A DNA stretch of 64,000 nucleotides from Gemmatimonadaceae bacterium (GTDB lineage Bacteria > Gemmatimonadota > Gemmatimonadetes > Gemmatimonadales > Gemmatimonadaceae), in contig JADZDM010000025.1 in assembly GCA_020851035.1 (NCBI GenBank), forward strand, positions 186,001 through 250,000, written 5' to 3'. Of the stretch, positions 3,953 to 61,360 are shown in pieces. The notes under the pieces are model-generated. The model saw only the letters and a list, made by a program, of their open reading frames with translations. It was not told the DNA's origin and did no database searches. Position 1 is the first letter of the stretch; every line of letters begins with the position of its first letter. The position numbers were made by a program, and so were the translations under genes.

Positions 3953-4711
3953 TCAGCAGTCGAGTACAAGACCGTCCGTGGCGATCACGGTCGGGCCGGT
4001 CCAGCGCGCGCCCAGCTCGGCACGCAGGTCGATCCCATCCAGCGGGGGATACATGTGCGTCACCACGAGCATGCCGGGTGCCGCCGCCGTCGCCAGCACC
4101 GCGGTCTCCGACGGCGTGAGGTGGATCGGCACCGGCATGGCGTCGGGCAGGGAGCACTCGGCCAGCAGGAGGTCGCAGCCGGCCGCCCAGGCGCCCAGCG
4201 ACGGGTCGTGGCCGGTGTCCCCGGTGTAGACCAGCCGCCTGCCGTCATGCCCGACGGAATATGCCACGCTTTCGGCCGTGTGGGGCACGCTCCGACTGGT
4301 GAGGGTCACGCCCGACCCGAGGTCGATCGGCTCCTCCAGCCCGGGCTCGAGGACCTGCAGCGGGAACCCCGGCTCGGCCAGCCACCCGCCCAGCGCCTCG
4401 GCCCAGCGGCCGAGCAGGGCCGCCGTGCCCGCCGGCCCGACGATGACCAGCGGCGCCGTCCGGGGCTCCAGGCGCGCGTGCCGCCACGCGAACACCAGCG
4501 TCGGCAGGTCACCGATGTGGTCCAGGTGCCAGTGGCTCAGCACGACGTGCGTGATGCCCCACCAGTCGATGCCGTGCCGCGCCATCGTGTGCGCCGAGCC
4601 TGGGCCGCAGTCCAGCAGGATCCGCAGGTCGCCTGCCTCGAGCAGGTACGACGCGCAGCCCCTGGTCGGTGACAGCGAGATCGTGCCGGATCCGATCACC
4701 GTCAGTCGCAT
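3953..4711 (-). CDS. MBL-fold metallo-hydrolase (RNase Z-like)
   Basis: Metallo-beta-lactamase fold hydrolase of 252 aa. The zinc motif SHWHLDH lies at residues 59-65. Further metal-ligand regions are visible at YTGDTGHDP and THMYPP, near the expected positions in the second half. The N-terminus (MRLTVIGSGT) and overall layout resemble the RNase Z/ElaC-like branch, but the protein is shorter than true RNase Z and the tRNA-binding exosite arm is not evident, so the substrate is unknown. The start ATG is at 4709-4711. It is the first gene of a leftward run with aroF and lolA, right after the 4743-4951 hairpin element. Confidence 0.8.
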   Translation of the reverse strand: MRLTVIGSGTISLSPTRGCASYLLEAGDLRILLDCGPGSAHTMARHGIDWWGITHVVLSHWHLDHIGDLPTLVFAWRHARLEPRTAPLVIVGPAGTAALLGRWAEALGGWLAEPGFPLQVLEPGLEEPIDLGSGVTLTSRSVPHTAESVAYSVGHDGRRLVYTGDTGHDPSLGAWAAGCDLLLAECSLPDAMPVPIHLTPSETAVLATAAAPGMLVVTHMYPPLDGIDLRAELGARWTGPTVIATDGLVLDC

Positions 4712-4742
4712 GTCGCCGGGCTCCGTGAGCGTTCGGGATCGT

Positions 4743-4951
4743 CAACAGGGTTCACGCGGAAACCACGGAAAACGCGGAAGCGGTCACGACACTGGCCCAC
4801 TGCATCTACACCGTGAAAAGCCGAGGAATTTCATGAACTGCGCGCCCGGTCTTGCAGTTCCTCCGAGATTGTCACTTGTGAGCGGCAACGAGTGGTGCAG
4901 AGCGTCGTGACCGCTTCCGCGTCCTCCGCGCTTTCCGCGTGAACACTGTTG
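4743..4951. repeat. 209-nt symmetric hairpin element with 9-nt periodic arms
   Basis: The arms 4743-4790 and 4904-4951 are 48-bp near-perfect inverted repeats. Within each arm the sequence steps every 9 nt (CGCGGAAAC, CACGGAAAA, CGCGGAAGC). At the exact centre GAACTGC (4835-4841) pairs with GCAGTTC (4854-4860), a 26-nt apical hairpin. It fills most of the gap between the MBL hydrolase and SMC genes. The same design with a different arm sequence occurs at 60451-60654. I know no named family for it. It could be a non-autonomous mobile repeat or a structured RNA; in the leftward direction it sits 38 nt past the smc stop codon and could also terminate transcription. Confidence 0.85.
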
Positions 4952-4989
4952 AAGCCACTCCCACCACGAGAGAAAAGCCGAGTCGAAGG

Positions 4990-7900
4990 CTAGACTGCCG
5001 CAGCCACGCTCTCGTTCGCGGCGTCCGGCACCTCGAGTGTGTTCGGGTCCGGATCGACCCCGCCGTTCTGCACCGCGTCGCCGTTGCGGTTGCGCAGGCG
5101 CACGCTCACCAGCGAGCTCACGCCCGGCTCCTGCATCGTCACGCCGTACACCGCGTCGGCCGCCTCGGTGGTGGTGCGCGGGTTGTGCGTGATGACGATG
5201 AACTGGGTCCGCTCCTTGAACTCGTTCAGCATCTTCACGTAGCGGCCCACGTTCTGGTCGTCGAGCGGGGCATCGACCTCGTCCAGCAGGCAGAACGGGC
5301 TGGGACGGGTGAGGAAGATGCCGAACAGCAGCGACAGGGCCACCAGCGCGCGCTCGCCGCTGGAGAGCAGGTGGATGCGCTGCGTCTTCTTGCCGCGCGG
5401 GCTGGCGTGGATCTCGATGTCGCAGTCCAGCGGCTGGTCGGGGTTCTCGAGCTTCAGGTCGCACTCGCCGCCGCCGAACAGCGTCTGGAAGATCTGGCGG
5501 AAGTTCTCGCGCACCTTCGCGAACGTCGCCAGGAACAGCTCGCGTGCGGTGGCGTCGATCTCCTTGATCGCCTGCAGCAGCGAGAGCTTGGCCTCGGCCA
5601 GGTCGTTGCGCTGCGCGGTGAGGAAGTCGAAGCGCTTCTGCTCCTCCTCGTGCTCCTCCACCGCCAGCGGGTTCACCGGGCCGAGCTGCTCGAGCTGCTG
5701 GCGCAGCGCCTCGTTCTCGGTGCGCAGGGCGTCGGCCTCGAGCTCCAGCGGCTCGAAACCTTCCAGCAGCTCGGCGATCGGCTTGCGCCACTCGGTCTCG
5801 AGCCGCTCACGGATGTTCTGCCGGCGCGCCTCGAGCTGGGTGTGCCGCAGCTCCGCCTGGTGCAGCTCCTCGGCCAGCAGCACCGCGTGGCGGCGCACCG
5901 CCTCCAGGGCCTCGTCGCCGCGCTGCAGCGCCACGTCGGCGGCGCGCAGTCCTTCCTCGGCCTCGATCAGGCGCGTGTCCACTTCCGAGAGCGCGAGCTG
6001 CCGTTCGTCGAGCTGCACGGTGAGCGTGGCGATCTGGTTCGCCAGCGCCTCGTCGGCGTTGGCGAGCTGCATCAGCTCATTCCGCAGCGTCTCGAGGCGC
6101 GCGGTGGCGGTGGCCTGCTCCTGCAGCAGTCGCGAGGCGCGGTCCTGCGCCACCTGCACCCGCGCCTGCGCCTGCGCGTGGGCCACCTGCGCGATGGTCC
6201 GGCCCTCACGCGTCTCCTCGAGCATCTCGTCGGCACCCGACAGGCGCTCACGTGCCGACGTGATCACGGCCTCGTGGCCGGCGAGCCCGGCGCGCAGTTC
6301 CTCCGCCCTGGCGTCGTCGTCCGCGGCACGCGCCTGCAGAGCCGCACGGCGGTCGGAGAGCTTCTCGCTCAGTCCCTGCGCCTCGTTGCGCTCCCGCTGC
6401 GCGCGGGCCGCACGACGCTCGACTTCCGCACGTGCCTCCTCGGCGCGGCGCACCTCACCCTGGGCCTGGCTGGCGGCATCGGCCGCCGCCATCACCGCCG
6501 CCTCGGCCGCCTGCAGCGTCTCGCTCACCGTCACGGCCTCGGCGCTGATGCGGGCACGGGCCGCGTCGAGCGTCTCGAGATCGTCGCGCAGCATCGCCAT
6601 CTCGGCGCGACGCTGGATCGGACCCTGCGCCGACTCGCCGCCGGGCAGGTAGATCGCGCCACGCGGGTCCACGAACCCCGTCCCGGCGCCCAGCGGCGTG
6701 ACCTGGCCGAGCAGCGCATGCACCCAGCGCTGCGCCGGTGCCGCCGCCTGCACGCGCAGTGCGAGCGAACCGGCGGCGTCGGCGCTGTCGTGCACGGCAT
6801 CCAGCGGCAGCAGGAGCACCGGGCCGGGACGTGCGCCTGCATGCCACTCGGCCACTGCCGCCGCCGCCTCGCGGTCCCGCACCACCACCGCGTGCACCGT
6901 GGCGCCGAGATACCGCTCGACGAGGATCGCCGCATCACTCTCGGCCGACAGGAAGTCCGACAGCGGCCCGAGCACCGCGCCAGGGCCGAAGCGCTCGCGT
7001 TCGCGGAGCACCGACGCGGCGCCCGGCGCGAGGCCGACACGATCGCGATCGAGCGCCTCGAGCCCGTGGATGCGGCCCTGCAGCGACGTGCGCTGGCGAT
7101 CGGCATCACCGAGCCGCGTGCGCACGTCGGCCTCGGCGCTGCGCGCCGCCTGCGCCCCGGTGCGCGCCGCCTCCAGTGCCGCCTGCGCGCGCGCCACCGT
7201 CACGCGCGCGATCTCCAGCGCCTCGTCGGCGGCGGCGCTGTCGCGCTCCACCGACGCGAGTGCGTCCGCCAGCGTCGCGATCTCCGACCCCAGCGCGCCC
7301 TCGCGGGACAGCACCTCGGCCAGCTCCCGCTCGGTGCCCTCGCGATCCAGCTCCAGCCGCCGCACCTGGTCCCGCGCATCGCGCAGCGTCTTCTCGGCCG
7401 CCTCCACCTGCTGGCGTGCCACCGACACGCTGCGGCGTGCCTCCTCCTCGGCACCGGCGCGCTCCGTGAGCAGCGCCACCGCGGCCGCCAGCTCCACCTG
7501 CAGCCGCTGCCGCTCGGTCTCGGCATCCTCGCGCTCGGCGACGACGCGCTGCCCCAGCGCCTCCCCGTCCAGCAGCTCGGCGTCGGCGCGCTCGCGGCGT
7601 GACATCGCGTTGCGCTGCCGCTCCTCGGCCACGCGCAGCTCGCGCTCCACCTGGTTCGCCTGCTCGCGCTGCACCTGTGACATGCGTGCGAGCTCCGCGC
7701 GCATCGCCTCGGCGGCCGCACGGGCGCGCTGCGCCGCCTCGCGGTCGCGCGTTGCCGACTCGGCGTTGGTGGCGGCAGCGGGGACCGCCTCGCGCAGCTC
7801 CTCGAGGCGGGCCTCGAGCTGCACCAGTTCGTCGGCCCAGCCCTCCAGCTCGCGGGCGGCGAGCGTCACGTCCACCAGGAAGCGGCGCTGCGTGAGCTCC

Positions 7901-8547
7901 ACGTTCCGCTCCGCCTTCTTGCGCTGCCGCGCCAGCGACCGCACCTGGCTCTGCACCTCCTCGATCAGGTCATCGAGGCGGGAAAGGTCCACGGTCGTCT
8001 CTTCCAGCCGCCGCTCGGTGCTCCGGCGCCGGTCGCGGTACAGGCCCACCCCAGCCGCCTCCTCGAACAGCTCGCGACGGTCGTCGGGGCGGTCACTGAG
8101 GAGTGCGTCGATCATCTTCGACTCGATCACCACCCCGCTGTCGGCACCCAGCCCCGTGCCGCGCACGAGGTCGTGGATGTCGCGCAGGCGGCACGGCGCG
8201 CGGTTCAGGAAGTAGTCGCTCTCGCCGGAACGCGACAGGCGCCTCGTGATGACCACTTCCTTGAACGCCACCGGCAGCACGCCGTCGGTGTTGTCGAAGT
8301 GCAGCGACACCTCCGCGACGTTCACCGCGCGGCGTGCCGACGAGCCCTGGAAGATCACTTCCTCCATCTTCGCGCCGCGCATCATGCGCGCACGCTGCTC
8401 ACCGAGCACCCAGCGCACGGCGTCCGACACGTTCGACTTGCCGCAGCCGTTGGGCCCGACGATCATCGTCGCGCCCGGCTCGAACAGCATCTCGGTCTGG
8501 TCTGCGAACGACTTGAAGCCGTGCAGGGTGAGCTTGGTCAGGCGCAC
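4990..8547 (-). CDS. smc: Chromosome segregation ATPase SMC
   Basis: Structural-maintenance-of-chromosomes ATPase that, with ScpA/ScpB, organises and segregates the nucleoid. At 1185 aa it has the full-length architecture. Walker A is GPNGCGKSN at residues 31-39. Two long coiled coils rich in E, R, A and Q flank a hinge of roughly residues 480-670 (contains GAVLGPLSDFLSAESDAA). The C-terminal head has the ABC signature LLSSGERALVALSL and Walker B CLLDEVDAPLDD. GTG at 8545-8547 is chosen over an upstream ATG because VRLTKLTLHGFKSFAD is the usual SMC N-terminus; GGGAGAAG lies about 9 nt upstream and the codon comes 1 nt after the stop of the preceding SPOR gene. Translational coupling with that gene is likely. 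Confidence 0.96.
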   Translation of the reverse strand: MRLTKLTLHGFKSFADQTEMLFEPGATMIVGPNGCGKSNVSDAVRWVLGEQRARMMRGAKMEEVIFQGSSARRAVNVAEVSLHFDNTDGVLPVAFKEVVITRRLSRSGESDYFLNRAPCRLRDIHDLVRGTGLGADSGVVIESKMIDALLSDRPDDRRELFEEAAGVGLYRDRRRSTERRLEETTVDLSRLDDLIEEVQSQVRSLARQRKKAERNVELTQRRFLVDVTLAARELEGWADELVQLEARLEELREAVPAAATNAESATRDREAAQRARAAAEAMRAELARMSQVQREQANQVERELRVAEERQRNAMSRRERADAELLDGEALGQRVVAEREDAETERQRLQVELAAAVALLTERAGAEEEARRSVSVARQQVEAAEKTLRDARDQVRRLELDREGTERELAEVLSREGALGSEIATLADALASVERDSAAADEALEIARVTVARAQAALEAARTGAQAARSAEADVRTRLGDADRQRTSLQGRIHGLEALDRDRVGLAPGAASVLRERERFGPGAVLGPLSDFLSAESDAAILVERYLGATVHAVVVRDREAAAAVAEWHAGARPGPVLLLPLDAVHDSADAAGSLALRVQAAAPAQRWVHALLGQVTPLGAGTGFVDPRGAIYLPGGESAQGPIQRRAEMAMLRDDLETLDAARARISAEAVTVSETLQAAEAAVMAAADAASQAQGEVRRAEEARAEVERRAARAQRERNEAQGLSEKLSDRRAALQARAADDDARAEELRAGLAGHEAVITSARERLSGADEMLEETREGRTIAQVAHAQAQARVQVAQDRASRLLQEQATATARLETLRNELMQLANADEALANQIATLTVQLDERQLALSEVDTRLIEAEEGLRAADVALQRGDEALEAVRRHAVLLAEELHQAELRHTQLEARRQNIRERLETEWRKPIAELLEGFEPLELEADALRTENEALRQQLEQLGPVNPLAVEEHEEEQKRFDFLTAQRNDLAEAKLSLLQAIKEIDATARELFLATFAKVRENFRQIFQTLFGGGECDLKLENPDQPLDCDIEIHASPRGKKTQRIHLLSSGERALVALSLLFGIFLTRPSPFCLLDEVDAPLDDQNVGRYVKMLNEFKERTQFIVITHNPRTTTEAADAVYGVTMQEPGVSSLVSVRLRNRNGDAVQNGGVDPDPNTLEVPDAANESVAAAV

Positions 8548-8548
8548 G

Positions 8549-9949
8549 TCAGAAACTTCTCCCGGTCCGGTAATAGAGCGTCGGATTGATGCCCTTGGCC
8601 ACCAGTTCACCCATCAGCGGCACGGCCTGGTCCGGTGACTCGAATGCGCCGACGAAGATCGTGGCCTTGCCGTCGGCCTGCAGCAGCGGATACGCGGCGA
8701 TCTGGCGCTGGCCGTAGCCGTTGGCGACGTTCTGCGCCGCGGCGCGTGAGATCCCCGCCTCGAGCATCAGGGCGTACGGCGTGGAGATCACGCGACCGGC
8801 GCCCGCCGCGAGCTTGCCACTGGCGCGCAGCGCGGTGAGCAGCGAGTCCGCCTGCCGCGCGCGAGTGTACGCACCGGCCTGCATCTGGAAGAAGCGCCCA
8901 CGCTCGCCCCGGATGCGGACCATCGTGACGGTGCCGGCGGGGAGGGTGAGTCCGAGGTCGGCCCAGCGCGCGAGCGCCTGCGCCTCGTCGTTCGTCGCCA
9001 CGATCACCACGCCGTACGGCGCGGCGGCGGCCGAGTCCTGCGGGTTCTCGGCGCGCGCGATGGTGGTGGTGTCGGCCGGCGGCGCCGGGATGGCGGCTTC
9101 CTGCGGCAGTTGCGCCGCGATCGCCCCCTGGGCAGCGGCCGCCGCCTCCTCACGCGTCACGGGTGCCGACGCGCCCGCGCCACCCGACATCCCGGGACGG
9201 CCCGCGATGAACCAGCCGGCGATCAGGGCGATCACGACGCCGGCGGCGATCAGCAGCTTCTTCTGCATGCCGTTGTCGTTCGCCGGGTACGGCGTGATCG
9301 GCCGCTGCTCGTCGGTGACGTGCGCCGGCAGCACCACCGGCGCCGGCGGGGGCGCCGCCGCCGACTTCGTCGGGACGTGCACGGCCGTCGGCACGACGCT
9401 CGCCGGCGCATCGATGTGTGCGAGCACGGAGTTCCGCGGCACCGAGAGCACCGACGTGGCGTCGCCCACCAGCACGACGCCGTCGAGCATCAGCGCCAGC
9501 TCGCGCAAGCCGTCGGCATCACTCGGCGCGACGAGGATCAGCAGCGCACCCACCTCGCGGAATCCCGCGGCCAGCCGGCGCCAGCGCTCGTTGCGGAGGA
9601 TGTCGGGCGTCACCACCGGTTCCGTGCCGCTCGGCATCACGAACAGCATGCCGGCGTCGTCCACCTGCCGGGCGATCTTGTTCAGCGACACGCCATACAG
9701 GAAGCTGTCCACGATGCCGTGCGCGTCATCGCCGGTGACGAGGTTCTGGAGCGGCTCGACATCGCCGACGAGGTCACCGATCGCGACGCGACGCGTCTGC
9801 GACTGGATGCGACCGATCCCGATGGCCGCATGCGCCGCCGCCACCGGATCGATGCCGGTGACGAGCACCGCGTGCACCGAATCCACGGCCGGGGCCGCAT
9901 CGGTGCCCAGCATCTCCCAGTCGAGCCCAGCAGTGGTTCCAGCAGCCAT
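8549..9949 (-). CDS. Membrane SPOR-domain protein with degenerate CpsD/ParA-like domain
   Basis: The N-terminal ~180 residues look like a ParA/CpsD-type fold (HAVLVTGIDPVAAAHAAIGI, then RVAIGDLVGDVEPL), but the P-loop lysine/serine (GKT/S) is missing, so nucleotide hydrolysis is doubtful. A transmembrane helix follows (LLIAAGVVIALIAGWFIAG). The C-terminal ~150 residues include SPOR-like repeats (RFFQMQAGAYTRARQADSLL; ATIFVGAFESPDQAVPLM), a fold that binds denuded septal peptidoglycan. It overlaps the upstream SPOR lipoprotein gene by TGATG and abuts smc downstream. A role linking the division septum to chromosome segregation is an inference from this context only. Confidence 0.7.
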   Translation of the reverse strand: MAAGTTAGLDWEMLGTDAAPAVDSVHAVLVTGIDPVAAAHAAIGIGRIQSQTRRVAIGDLVGDVEPLQNLVTGDDAHGIVDSFLYGVSLNKIARQVDDAGMLFVMPSGTEPVVTPDILRNERWRRLAAGFREVGALLILVAPSDADGLRELALMLDGVVLVGDATSVLSVPRNSVLAHIDAPASVVPTAVHVPTKSAAAPPPAPVVLPAHVTDEQRPITPYPANDNGMQKKLLIAAGVVIALIAGWFIAGRPGMSGGAGASAPVTREEAAAAAQGAIAAQLPQEAAIPAPPADTTTIARAENPQDSAAAAPYGVVIVATNDEAQALARWADLGLTLPAGTVTMVRIRGERGRFFQMQAGAYTRARQADSLLTALRASGKLAAGAGRVISTPYALMLEAGISRAAAQNVANGYGQRQIAAYPLLQADGKATIFVGAFESPDQAVPLMGELVAKGINPTLYYRTGRSF

Positions 9950-41932: not shown

Positions 41933-42098
41933 CTAGTGGCGTGTGATCGAAGTTCCGGACGCAGTCGCCGGTCGGGGCATCCCGGCTGGCGGCGTTGAAC
42001 ATCCTCGCAATACCGCTGGTCTTGCTGCTGTGTTCGCCTGGCCATCCAGGCGCCCCATCCGGCTGTGTGCTATCCGAACTTCGATCACACGCCACTAG
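41933..42098. repeat. 166-bp MITE-like inverted-repeat element
   Basis: The ends CTAGTGGCGTGTGATCGAAG... (41933-41955) and their exact reverse complement (42076-42098) are 23-bp perfect inverted repeats. Weaker complementarity continues inward, so almost the whole element can fold on itself around a ~33-nt loop near 42001-42033. It lies between two convergent genes and supplies the TAG stop codon of the epimerase gene (42095-42097). It encodes nothing. It does not share the 9-nt periodic arms or central GAACTGC stem of the elements at 4743 and 60451. Confidence 0.8.
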
Positions 42099-45316: not shown

Positions 45317-48300
45317 CCGCCCCCCCGATGCCGCAGGGCGCCCTCGGCCAGCTCGAGGCGATCGTCCGCGACGAACGCAGCGCGCGGCTCGCCCTCGCCA
45401 GCCAGACGCGTCTCGCCACCACGGTGCTGCCGTTGCTCGCGGCCGGAACCGTGGGCGTGGCGGTGCTGGGCAGCGGTCGGTGGCTGGAGCTGCCCCGCGT
45501 GCTGCCGTTCGTGTTCTGGGCGGCGGGCATCGGTGCGGCGGTGTGGGCGTGGCGCCTGCGTCGCGCCGAGGACGGTCGCGTGACGACGGCGGATGCGGTG
45601 GCGGAGTCCATCGAGCAGGAGCAGCTTCTGCGACGGGGCGCGATTCGCGTCGCACAGGAAGTGGCGACGAGCGGCCCGCTGGGGGCGCATGCGGCGCTCA
45701 GCACCTCGCGAGCGCTGGCCGGCACGACGCTGCCGCGCGCGCCGCAGGCGTTCGGCGCATTGCGCGCGGTGCGGCAGCGCGCCGTGCTCTGGGCTGGCGC
45801 CGCGCTGCTGGCGCTGGTCGCCGCCGGGTTCACGTGGACCGACGGCGCCGAGGCGCTCGGCAACCCGGTCGGCGCGTGGAACGGCACGCTGCTGCCAGAG
45901 TTGGTCCTCGACGCGCCGGTGGTGGCGTTGCGCGGGAGTGCGCCGTCGATCCGCGTGACGGGGCGCGGGCGTGCGGCGGTGGCGGTGGCGATGCAGAAGA
46001 GCGATGGCACGGTGGTCACGGAGCGACTGGTGCTGCGTGACGAGGTCGGCACGCGCGTGCTGCCGGTGCTCGACGCGGACGTGGTGCTCACGGTGAGCGA
46101 TGGCCGCGCCACCTCCGCGCCGCACCGCATCCGCGTGACGGACAAGCCGTACCTGGGCGACGTGGTGGCGCAGGCGAGCTATCCGGCCTATCTCGGCCGG
46201 GTGGACGAGGACGTGGCGCTGGCCGGCGTGCTGGTGCTGCCCCGCGGCACCGTGCTCACGCTGCGTGGACACGCGTCGGTGCCACTGACGACGGTGACGC
46301 TGCGGAGTGACGAGGGCGCGAGCGTGCCCCTGACGGTCAGTGGCGACGCCGTGGATGGGCGGCTGGTGGCCGAGCGCAGTGCACGCTGGACCTGGGCGGC
46401 GCAGTCGGCGACACCACTGCAGGAGCTGCCGCCCTCGTTCGCACTCGACATCCGGGCGGACTCGGCGCCGCAGGTGCAGATCGCGAGCACGAGCGACACG
46501 CTGCTGCTGGCCGGTGCGTCGGCCACGGTGACGGTGCTGGCCAGCGACGACCACGCGCTGGCGAGCGTGATGCTCACGGTGCGGTCCGGTGAGACGGTGG
46601 TGGCGCGTCGCGAGATCATGTCGGTGCGCGGCCCCGCCTTCGAGGGCAGCGTGCCGCTGGACCTGGATGCGCTGGGGCTCCGGGGTGACGACGGCGCGCT
46701 GCGGGTGGACGTGACGGCCACGGATGCGTCACCGTGGCACCAGGTGGGACGGAGCCGCACGCTCGTGTTGCGTCGTGCCGGCGTGACAGAGCGACGCGAG
46801 CAGGCGCGCGCGACGGCGGACAGCGTGGCGGCGGGTGCCTCGTCGCTGGCGCAGCAGCAGCAGCAGCTTGCGCAGCAGACGTCGGATGCCGCACGCCGCG
46901 CCCGGGCCGGGGGGGAGAACGGGCAGCCGATGTCGTTCGATGCCCGGGAGAAGGCGTCACAGATGGCGCAGCAGCAGCGTGCACTGCAGCAGCAGGCGCA
47001 GCAGCTCCAGCAGCAGGCGAAGCAGCTCGCCGACCAGCTCAAGGGGGCCGGTGCGCTGGACTCCGCCCTGGCCGGCCGCATCGCGGAGGCGCAGCGGATG
47101 ATGCAGGAGGCGATGGCGCCGCAGATGATGCAGCGACTGCAGCAGCTCGAGCAGTCGGCGCAGCGGCTCGACCAGGCTGCCACGCGCCAGTCGCTGGACG
47201 ACCTCGCGAAGCAGCAGCAGGCCTTGCGCGAACAGCTCGAGCGCAACGCCGAGATGCTGAAGCGTGCCGCGCTGGAGGGCAGCATGGAGACGCTGCGCGA
47301 CGAGGCCCAGGACCTGTCGCGGGCGCAGCGCCAGCTGGCGGATTCATCGGGCGGCGCGACGGCGGCGCAGCGCGCGCAGCAGGCCGAGCGGCTGGCGCGG
47401 CAGAACGAGGCGCTCACGCGGCAGATCAACGACCTGACCAAGCGCCTGCGTGACAACGATGCCCAGCGCGGCGCGCAGCGCAGCGAGCAGGCGCGCCAGA
47501 ACAGCGAGGCGGCGAACCGGCAGATGCAGGAGGCGGCGCGCGACCCGCAGTCGGCGCAGCAGAGCGCCCAGCGTGCCTCGCAGTCCATGCAGCAGGCCGC
47601 GGACCAGCTGGCGCAGGCGCGGCAGGAGCAGGTGAACGACTGGAAGCGGGAGACCACGTCGGAGCTGGACCAGTCGATCCAGGAGATGATGCAGCTGAGC
47701 CAGCAGGAGCGGCAGATGGCAGACGCCGCCCAGCAGCGCGCGCAGCAGCAACAGCCGCAGGGGCAGCAGGGCCAGCAGGGCCAGCAACAACAGCAACAAC
47801 AGCAACAACAGCAACAACAGCAACAACAGGGGCAGCAGCAGCAGGGCCAGCAGGGGCAGCAGAACCCGCAGGGCCAGCCGCAACAGGGCCAGCAGGGCCA
47901 GCAGAACGCCCAGCAGCAGATGGCCGCTGAGCAGGCGACGGTGCAGAACGGCGTCCAGCAGGCGGCGCAGCGACTGCAGGAGGCGGCGCGGCGGTCGCAG
48001 CATGTGTCGCAGGGATCGCAGCGTGCGATGCAGGAGGCGCTGCAGCGGGCGCAGGAAGCCACGCAGCAGGCGCAGCGCGGGCAGCAGGGCCAGCAGAACG
48101 GCGAGCAATCGGCCGCCGCGATGCGGGATGCGGCCGCCGCAATGGAGCGTGCCGCGTCCAGCCTGGTGCGTGATCGCGAGCGGGCGAGCCGCGCGCGCTC
48201 GGCATCGGGACTGCCGGAGATGATGGAGGAGATGCAGCAGCTCGCCCGCCAGCAACAGCAGGTGAACGGGCAGGCGCAGGGCATGTCGATGATGCCTGGC

Positions 48301-48747
48301 GGCGAGTCGGGGGCCCAGGCGCAGCAGCTCGCGCAGCAGATCGCACGCCGCCAGCGGCAGATCGCGCAGCGGCTGGACGACGTGGGCACCGGCGACCAGA
48401 GTGGCCGCGCCGACGCGCTCGCGAAGGAAGCAAAGCGTCTCGCCGACGCGATGGAACGGGCCGCCAGCGATCCCGAGACGGCGGCGCGGCGTGAGCAGTT
48501 CCTGCAGCGGCTGCTGGACGCCGGTCGCACGCTGCGGCGTGAGGACCAGGAAAAGGAAGGGCCGCGCGAATCGAAGCCCGGCATCGGCACCGCGGCCTTC
48601 GCGCCGCCCGCGATCCAGGCGGTCGGCGCGCCGGCGTCGCGCGTTACGCCACCCTCGTGGGAGGAACTGCGTGGCCTGCGCGACGACGAACGCCGCGCCG
48701 TGCTGCAGTACTTCGAGCGCCTGAACAAGACCGGGGCCAAGCCGTGA
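45313..48747 (+). CDS. DUF4175-like large membrane protein with glutamine-rich coiled coil
   Basis: Protein of 1144 aa. Three N-terminal hydrophobic segments (TVLPLLAAGTVGVAVLG; LPFVFWAAGIGAAVWAW; AVLWAGAALLALVAAGF) are followed by ~300 residues of beta-sandwich-like sequence facing the periplasm. From about residue 500 to 1070 the protein is an extreme Q/A/R-rich coiled coil. It includes a 20-residue run of glutamines encoded partly by a 9-nt repeat at 47782-47829. The C-terminus ends LRGLRDDERRAVLQYFERLN. This is the layout of DUF4175 proteins. The function is unknown; the context with DUF4159 suggests an envelope complex. Confidence 0.8.
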   Translation: MTAPPMPQGALGQLEAIVRDERSARLALASQTRLATTVLPLLAAGTVGVAVLGSGRWLELPRVLPFVFWAAGIGAAVWAWRLRRAEDGRVTTADAVAESIEQEQLLRRGAIRVAQEVATSGPLGAHAALSTSRALAGTTLPRAPQAFGALRAVRQRAVLWAGAALLALVAAGFTWTDGAEALGNPVGAWNGTLLPELVLDAPVVALRGSAPSIRVTGRGRAAVAVAMQKSDGTVVTERLVLRDEVGTRVLPVLDADVVLTVSDGRATSAPHRIRVTDKPYLGDVVAQASYPAYLGRVDEDVALAGVLVLPRGTVLTLRGHASVPLTTVTLRSDEGASVPLTVSGDAVDGRLVAERSARWTWAAQSATPLQELPPSFALDIRADSAPQVQIASTSDTLLLAGASATVTVLASDDHALASVMLTVRSGETVVARREIMSVRGPAFEGSVPLDLDALGLRGDDGALRVDVTATDASPWHQVGRSRTLVLRRAGVTERREQARATADSVAAGASSLAQQQQQLAQQTSDAARRARAGGENGQPMSFDAREKASQMAQQQRALQQQAQQLQQQAKQLADQLKGAGALDSALAGRIAEAQRMMQEAMAPQMMQRLQQLEQSAQRLDQAATRQSLDDLAKQQQALREQLERNAEMLKRAALEGSMETLRDEAQDLSRAQRQLADSSGGATAAQRAQQAERLARQNEALTRQINDLTKRLRDNDAQRGAQRSEQARQNSEAANRQMQEAARDPQSAQQSAQRASQSMQQAADQLAQARQEQVNDWKRETTSELDQSIQEMMQLSQQERQMADAAQQRAQQQQPQGQQGQQGQQQQQQQQQQQQQQQQGQQQQGQQGQQNPQGQPQQGQQGQQNAQQQMAAEQATVQNGVQQAAQRLQEAARRSQHVSQGSQRAMQEALQRAQEATQQAQRGQQGQQNGEQSAAAMRDAAAAMERAASSLVRDRERASRARSASGLPEMMEEMQQLARQQQQVNGQAQGMSMMPGGESGAQAQQLAQQIARRQRQIAQRLDDVGTGDQSGRADALAKEAKRLADAMERAASDPETAARREQFLQRLLDAGRTLRREDQEKEGPRESKPGIGTAAFAPPAIQAVGAPASRVTPPSWEELRGLRDDERRAVLQYFERLNKTGAKP
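47782..47829 (+). repeat. CAGCAACAA microsatellite inside the DUF4175 gene
   Basis: Five exact 9-nt units CAGCAACAA run from 47782 to 47826, followed by a CAG. They encode Gln-Gln-Gln units in the coiled coil. Because units are multiples of three, slippage would alter length without shifting the frame. Confidence 0.9.
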
Positions 48748-60323: not shown

Positions 60324-60450
60324 AACAGCCCCCAAACGTACCCTCGTCCGTGGGGCGGCACAACGTCCCGGCCGGCTTTCGGGCGGTTCCGGGGCCGGCC
60401 GGGCGGGGAGCGCCTGTCGGGGGCCATCATCGATGCCGTGCCTGCATCCT

Positions 60451-60654
60451 GAACGGCTGCAACGCAAAGACGCGAAGGACGCAAAGCGTCCGGCGCATGC
60501 GGCCGCCTTCCACGCGGAGCGGGGCATCGCATAGCTGTTGGAACTGCAACCGCAACCGCTGTTCCCCTCGAATGCGATGCGTCTCGTGCGCGCTGGCCGG
60601 TGCCGCGTGCTCCAATCCCTTCGCGTTCTTTGCGACTTTGCGTTGGCGCCGTTC
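60451..60654. repeat. 204-nt symmetric hairpin element with 9-nt periodic arms
   Basis: The outer arms start GAACGGC (60451) and end GCCGTTC (60654). Inside each arm units step every 9 nt (CGCAAAGA, CGCGAAGGA, CGCAAAG). Inner stems include GCATCGCAT with ATGCGATGC. At the exact centre GGAAC (60540-60544) and GTTCC (60561-60565) form the 26-nt apical hairpin, starting GGAACTGC as in the element at 4743-4951. The element lies in the 524-bp gene-free stretch 60324-60847, where I see nothing else coding. ORFs crossing it are shadows. Confidence 0.85.
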
Positions 60655-60847
60655 ACGATCCCGAACCACCGCACGAAGCTCGAGTGTGGCGCGGGGTGAT
60701 GTGTCACGGATCGCAATGCGTGCACGCTTCTTGCCCTTCGAGCATGCGTACGATGGCACGGCGACGCTTGCATGGAACATCACCGCACCTCAGTTCGCCT
60801 GATGGCGTGACGACGTGCGCTCACATTGCTGGACAGGAGACGCAAGG

Positions 60848-61240: not shown

Positions 61241-61308
61241 TCCCGACGTCGTGGCAGGTGCGTCGCCGGTTCTGGATTTCAGGGCCGGCGCCGTTCCTTG
61301 CGCGCCGG

Positions 61309-61360
61309 TTCAAGGGGACGGGGATCTTGAACTCACATTCAAGATCCCCGTCCCCTTGAA
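61309..61360. repeat. Perfect palindromic REP copy, probable bidirectional terminator
   Basis: A 23-bp perfect inverted repeat (61309-61331 with 61338-61360, 6-nt loop) consists of two opposed copies of the CAAGGGGACGGGGAT repeat seen in tandem at 189-337. It lies in the gap between the convergent BON lipoprotein and GMC oxidoreductase genes, where its very stable hairpin could terminate transcription in both directions. It ends 24 bp before the GMC stop codon. There is no U-tract. Confidence 0.85.

Follow-up and report, generated by a model that had tools for sequence, protein, structure and literature searches.

Gene-less hairpin repeats in a Gemmatimonadaceae genome share their arms with elements encoding GxxExxY, a putative PD-(D/E)XK nuclease

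The window, that is, the whole stretch of 64,000 nt analyzed here, lies in a Gemmatimonadaceae genome of 4.97 Mb in 34 contigs (G000). It contains a hairpin in an intergenic space bounded on one side by the stop of an SMC-type ATPase gene and on the other by the start of a gene for a metallo-beta-lactamase-fold protein, and a second hairpin near its other end. The features are as follows.

3953–4711, minus strand: metallo-beta-lactamase-fold protein gene, neighbor of the first hairpin (context only)
4742–4952, no strand: gene-less hairpin element, subfamily A, with ACGCGGAAA-type arms (from the fold, inverted-repeat detection and genome search)
4742–4793, plus strand: left arm, with the terminus TCAACA..GTTCACGCGG and 9-nt units; the same arm flanks a GxxExxY gene on contig C21
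4835–4860, no strand: central 26-nt hairpin, GAACTGC/GCAGTTC, conserved across the dispersed copies
4901–4952, plus strand: right arm, 88% complementary to the left arm, with an inner edge, AGCGTCGTGACC, common to the GxxExxY-bearing element
4990–8610, minus strand: SMC-type ATPase gene, neighbor (context only), ending 38 nt from the hairpin
60446–60659, no strand: second gene-less hairpin, subfamily B, with ACGCAAAG-type arms and an GGAACTGC center, on the same plan as subfamily A
60540–60565, no strand: central 26 nt of the second hairpin, GGAAC...GTTCC

The hairpin at 4742–4952 was the first-listed inverted repeat and the top-scoring hairpin of the whole window, with arms of 52 nt (4742–4793 and 4901–4952) that were 88% complementary and spaced 107 nt apart. 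Its predicted DNA fold had an energy of −68.4 kcal/mol, compared with −36.5 (SD 3.6) for shuffled sequences (z = −8.8; 0 of 200 shuffles equaled it). The symmetric 209-nt hairpin of the preliminary description is therefore real, and the two details given with it were also found: a 9-nt stepping of the arms, visible as ACGCGGAAA-CCACGGAAA-ACGCGGAAG, and a 26-nt apical hairpin at the exact center, formed by GAACTGC and GCAGTTC (4835–4841 and 4854–4860, 12 nt apart, centered at 4847.5). The statement that it belongs to no named family holds within the scope searched, as there was no Rfam match over the hairpin at the gathering score, the matches in the window being two tRNAs only, and no paper on it in the open-access library. 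Its position right after the SMC stop codon would suit a hairpin acting chiefly at the RNA level, as a terminator, mRNA stabilizer or processing site, with its spread being secondary; however, no Rfam match was found, and no T run (the trait of an intrinsic terminator) follows the stem after position 4952.

The arms of the second hairpin (60446–60503 and 60602–60659) were 58 nt long and 78% complementary, and its 26-nt center reads GGAACTGCAACCGCAACCGCTGTTCC. A genome search seeded with the first hairpin did not return this element, and subfamily B has dispersed relatives of its own in the genome. The two hairpins are two subfamilies of one architecture, with a common plan and the GGAACTGC center but differing arm words. 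The “copy at 60451–60654” mentioned previously thus exists and has the same plan and center, but it is a separate subfamily rather than a copy in primary sequence.

The genome search detected about 20 dispersed copies resembling the first hairpin, each roughly 205–220 nt in length. In the 16 copies that were aligned, conservation covered the termini ATCGTCAACA...TGTTGACGAT, the arm units of 9 nt and the center TGTAGGAACTGCG...CGCAGTTCCTACA, but not the stretch between arm and center. Standard pairs occupied 94.9% of the pair cells. Changes on both sides were observed in 11 of the 41 pairs, compared with 4.8 in shuffles; none of the 500 shuffles reached 11, and slid versions gave at most 6. The covariation of the arms proposed earlier is real, and complementarity is also held over the 29 fab loci described below, whereas the selection on structure read from it does not follow uniquely: the arm symmetry could be kept by structural selection or by arm-to-arm conversion, both of which fit the data.

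When the window site was compared with the two other species of the genus, both also had a hairpin there, with different arm letters. Two further copies (C23:146 kb and C24:133 kb) were absent at the orthologous place in the congener G003, providing the empty sites in close relatives for which the preliminary description had asked, in comparisons whose flanks were approximately 75–90% identical and too diverged for exact junctions. At the orthologues of these two copies, the genome G036 had different hairpins, which were partly nested, and it had nested gene-less hairpins at the site of a gene-bearing element of G000 (L030, see below). Copies that are present in one genome and absent from another, and turnover at intergenic sites that relatives have in common, are thus seen. 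No target-site duplication was visible by eye in the printed copies, exact junctions being beyond the resolution of the diverged empty sites. Instead of the isolated structured element of the preliminary description, the hairpin is a dispersed repeat, polymorphic for presence, with relatives that encode GxxExxY proteins.

One of these relatives was found by the same genome search. Two arm matches on contig C21 (439214–439249 and 439742–439792) enclose a PF13366 gene at 439290–439640, the product of which is a GxxExxY protein (TIGR04256, E = 4.6e−37, far above the family cut-off). The left arm of this element is GGCATCGTTAACAATGTTCACGCGGAAAACGCGGAAAACGCGG and its right arm CCGCGTTCTCCGCGTGAATCCTGTTGACGATCCC; the match with the window hairpin runs through the arm and on into the adjoining inner AGCGTCGTGACC. 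The GxxExxY gene L030 has termini identical to those of the C21 element, TCAACAGTGTTCACGCGGA, a third gene (L028) has ACGCAAGG-type arms, and at a fourth (L029) a hairpin with CACGGAG arms lies immediately upstream of the start. No PF05635 (four-helix-bundle/23S IVS) gene was found in G000 or in the control genomes. As in the MITEs of insertion sequences, short gene-less hairpins share terminal inverted repeats with a gene-bearing element of the same genome; unlike in MITEs, the gene between the arms encodes a PD-(D/E)XK protein and no transposase.

Hairpins of a MITE- or REP-like type could also be moved in trans by another transposase (a RAYT or an IS enzyme), with GxxExxY as cargo between the same ends. 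Three Y1 transposases are encoded in G000, and MITE ends are known, in principle, to enclose cargo genes. However, every RAYT is associated with distinct repeats of its own, the hairpin arms occur in none of them, and GxxExxY lies between such arms, with varying letters, over many phyla, which is unexpected for chance cargo. We consider this explanation improbable, and RAYT ownership of the hairpins was rejected on the grounds that each of the three Y1 transposases is flanked by other repeats. One set of these is present in the window: 23-nt repeats, GTTCAAGGGGACGGGGATCTTGA, at 185–334 and 61284–61360, partly hairpin-forming. They also flank the RAYT-like Y1 transposase gene L212 (C25:163197–163523) and therefore look like the REPs of that RAYT. 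The further Y1 transposase genes L213 and L214 are accompanied by separate repeat units (GGACTCTGTCCCCTTTCTGTGCCC and CCGGTGACAGTGCACTCATTTCCG, respectively).

The gene carried by the full element clearly belongs to TIGR04256/PF13366 (PDDEXK_3), an annotated family without an assigned function; no paper found in the open-access library describes its flanking arms or cognate dispersed hairpins. Residues D71, E81, K83 and Q95 were invariant in 80 of 80 GxxExxY sequences, a count from which the N-terminal LGPGLLES block, used as the search bait, was left out, and the D..ExK and Q residues are intact in the C21 gene. Within the matched stretch, nine of the 80 translations were interrupted by a stop, possibly because the match ends past the true stop or because the copies have decayed. 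An AlphaFold model of the protein (mean pLDDT 85) weakly resembled a Spirosoma PD-(D/E)XK-type protein, Cas4 SSO0001 and lambda exonuclease (E-values 2e−3 to 3e−2, best 1.8e−3; low TM-scores), and a PDB search with the alignment A1 returned no sequence relative. GxxExxY is read here as a PD-(D/E)XK nuclease with a weak, distant likeness to Cas4 and lambda exonuclease. An annotation pipeline has called a GxxExxY domain where another tool called a cas4 gene (PMC8934634).

Flanking inverted arms were detected at 17 of 33 GxxExxY loci in the family of the window's genome, compared with 0 of 87 control tiles. In a wider survey of 80 GxxExxY loci from many phyla, with one genome per species, a strict arm test was positive for 40 loci and for 1 of 290 controls. 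These tests undercount because the right arms overlap the gene end; when an alignment score permitting this overlap was used, 61 of 79 GxxExxY genes had flanking inverted arms, compared with 2 of 430 shifted controls. Further arm-flanked GxxExxY genes were found in plasmid records of Bacteroides (CACAGAGGACGCAGAGGACACGGAGG) and Bernardetia, and in five plasmid records the gene lay on the strand of its neighbors; phage records gave no GxxExxY match. Eight short fragmentary GxxExxY matches, possibly decaying copies, were present on contigs 8, 18, 19, 24, 26, 32 and 35 of the genome G037.

The letters of the arms were specific to individual genomes. The word CACGCGGAAAACGCGGAA, contained in the GxxExxY arm at C21:439223, matched 47 times in G000 but not at all in 11 other genomes, two of them congeners, and a word of the hairpins beside the GxxExxY gene L201 had 321 matches in G016 and none in the remaining genomes; as the words were picked from arms of some of the tested genomes, their absence elsewhere indicates letter specificity, not a lack of hairpins. 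An arm word from a Sphingomonas fab locus matched 45, 15, 13, 9, 2 and 1 times in six Sphingomonadales and was absent from six genomes of the window's family. Its matches were largely inverted pairs about 110 nt apart, with the gene-bearing pair 426 apart, and the printed copies were clean hairpins of approximately 110–170 nt bearing the arms of the gene-bearing element. The reversed-pattern control gave 17 matches in G059, a genome with a related arm word that resembles the reversed pattern. Together, these observations give good support to a pairing between hairpin repeats and GxxExxY, of which no published account was found in the open-access library. Several results count against a nuclease-driven model: G062 has 15 copies of a word that differs from the arm of its own fab-locus gene, G004 has hairpins of about 200 nt of another sequence type and no GxxExxY gene was found there, and hairpin density in eight genomes showed no clean link with the presence of GxxExxY. 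The G004 hairpins (L235–L239) have AACTGCAACTGAACGAGAGGTCAGC-like ends and may be another class or an orphaned one.

The last of these results would be expected if host replication and repair spread the hairpins, through template switching at palindromes, slippage of 8–9-nt units and arm-to-arm conversion, with GxxExxY being a structure-specific nuclease beside the hairpins that limits them or is a passenger and mobilizes nothing. The tandem short units, nested palindromes and concerted change of the arms also fit slippage and template switching. However, 16 copies have common ends, arm units and center over about 210 nt, exact arm words recur tens to hundreds of times in a genome and are missing from its congeners, and G003 has empty sites. 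Common ends, units and center together with genome-limited exact words call for the copying of a defined unit, and we therefore regard the host-repair explanation as unlikely, albeit less so than movement by another transposase.

A fixed genomic position allowed the arms to be compared among species. At about 29 loci in Sphingomonadales and relatives (L143, L156, L166, L104 and about 25 more), an arm-flanked GxxExxY gene lies between fabD and fabG, in the fatty-acid synthesis operon, as far as the flanks were read. The 29 loci had 28 different left arms, and the left and right arms were still complementary, which indicates that the gene and its paired arms have been kept together at this place. 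At variable positions, 87% of comparisons were symmetric, compared with 55% (maximum 70%) when right arms were dealt among species, a count inflated by relatedness. In this transcribed operon, imperfect pairs leaned toward G-U over A-C (about 21 to 10, counts that are not independent), as an RNA-level role would predict, but A-C and G-U imperfections were about equally frequent in the dispersed copies, and such a role leaves unexplained why the hairpins share their ends with a nuclease gene. A primarily RNA-level function thus appears improbable. The fabD-GxxExxY-fabG locus offers a ready orthologous series with co-varying arms for biochemistry.

Some elements lie within other hairpins. L263 and L269 of Sphingomonas and L018 of G000 sit in the middle of a hairpin (flank scores of 52, 53 and 27, against a 99th percentile of 24), and L262, L005 and L006 were also centered inside other hairpins by eye, forming nested palindromes. 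Insertion at hairpin tips is plausible as a target preference, although not established.

The arrangement resembles REPIN/RAYT systems (PMC3116915) in that gene-less inverted doublets forming hairpins are dispersed, a gene in one or a few copies is framed by related repeats, and the repeat sequence is specific to the genome. It differs in the enzyme, a Y1 HUH tyrosine transposase in REPIN/RAYT and a PD-(D/E)XK protein (TIGR04256) here, and in the arms, which are 25–50 nt of 8–11-nt tandem words rather than 20–40-bp REPs tagged GTAG; no GTAG foot was found in the aligned copies, whose termini are TCAACA..GTTCACGCGG. TIRtrons, with GTAG or CGTC REPs, likewise consist of a small gene between long terminal inverted repeats, which also occur as dispersed families, but the TIRYTs they encode are tyrosine transposases, unlike GxxExxY, and the accessible text of that source mentions neither Gemmatimonadota nor a PD-(D/E)XK partner (PMC3733652).

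On the basis of the RAYT/REPIN analogy and the presence or absence of copies, the explanation that we favor, and hold to be rather probable, is a two-part REPIN/RAYT-like system with a PD-(D/E)XK nuclease in place of the tyrosine transposase, the nuclease mobilizing the hairpins. The window hairpin would be a miniature, gene-less member of this family. A full member carries one gene, GxxExxY, directly between inverted arms of repeated 8–11-nt units, and gene-less members, which keep the arms and fold into a hairpin, are spread over intergenic sites of that genome. The nuclease would recognize the arm sequence or hairpin of its own genome and cut there, and the hairpin so released would enter new sites by copying or joining, in some cases at the tip of a hairpin already present. 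The observations behind this proposal are the arms around the gene, the shared arm words and their genome specificity, the empty sites, the long-kept complementarity and the invariant active-site residues; from them, we infer an action of the nuclease on the arms, with dispersal as its result. We know of no PD-(D/E)XK nuclease that transposes DNA alone.

The evidence points to a nuclease-linked class of miniature mobile element that is undescribed in the open-access library. A broader version, which we put forward tentatively as somewhat short of an even chance, is that a new class of mobile-repeat system across many phyla has as its enzyme the single-domain Cas4-like GxxExxY, which, without a transposase, spreads hairpins by a genome-specific code of 8–11-nt arms and targets hairpin tips. 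Among the enzymes thought to underlie bacterial repeat families, HUH tyrosine transposases are the best known; if the proposal is true, a PD-(D/E)XK nuclease would join them. Arm letters that vary among genomes and match the genome's own nuclease gene also give the GxxExxY family a testable substrate and role.

Other repeats were present in the window. An inverted repeat at 41933–42098 has 58-nt arms that are 71% complementary, with a nearly perfect outer part, CTAGTGGCGTGTGATCGAAGTTC, and is unrelated to the 9-nt arms. A stretch of CAG/CAA repeats at 46842–48364 reads as a glutamine-rich, low-complexity frame. Two tandem CTCACGGAGGACACGGAG units at 394–428 constitute a third arm type and resemble the hairpin beside the GxxExxY gene L029.
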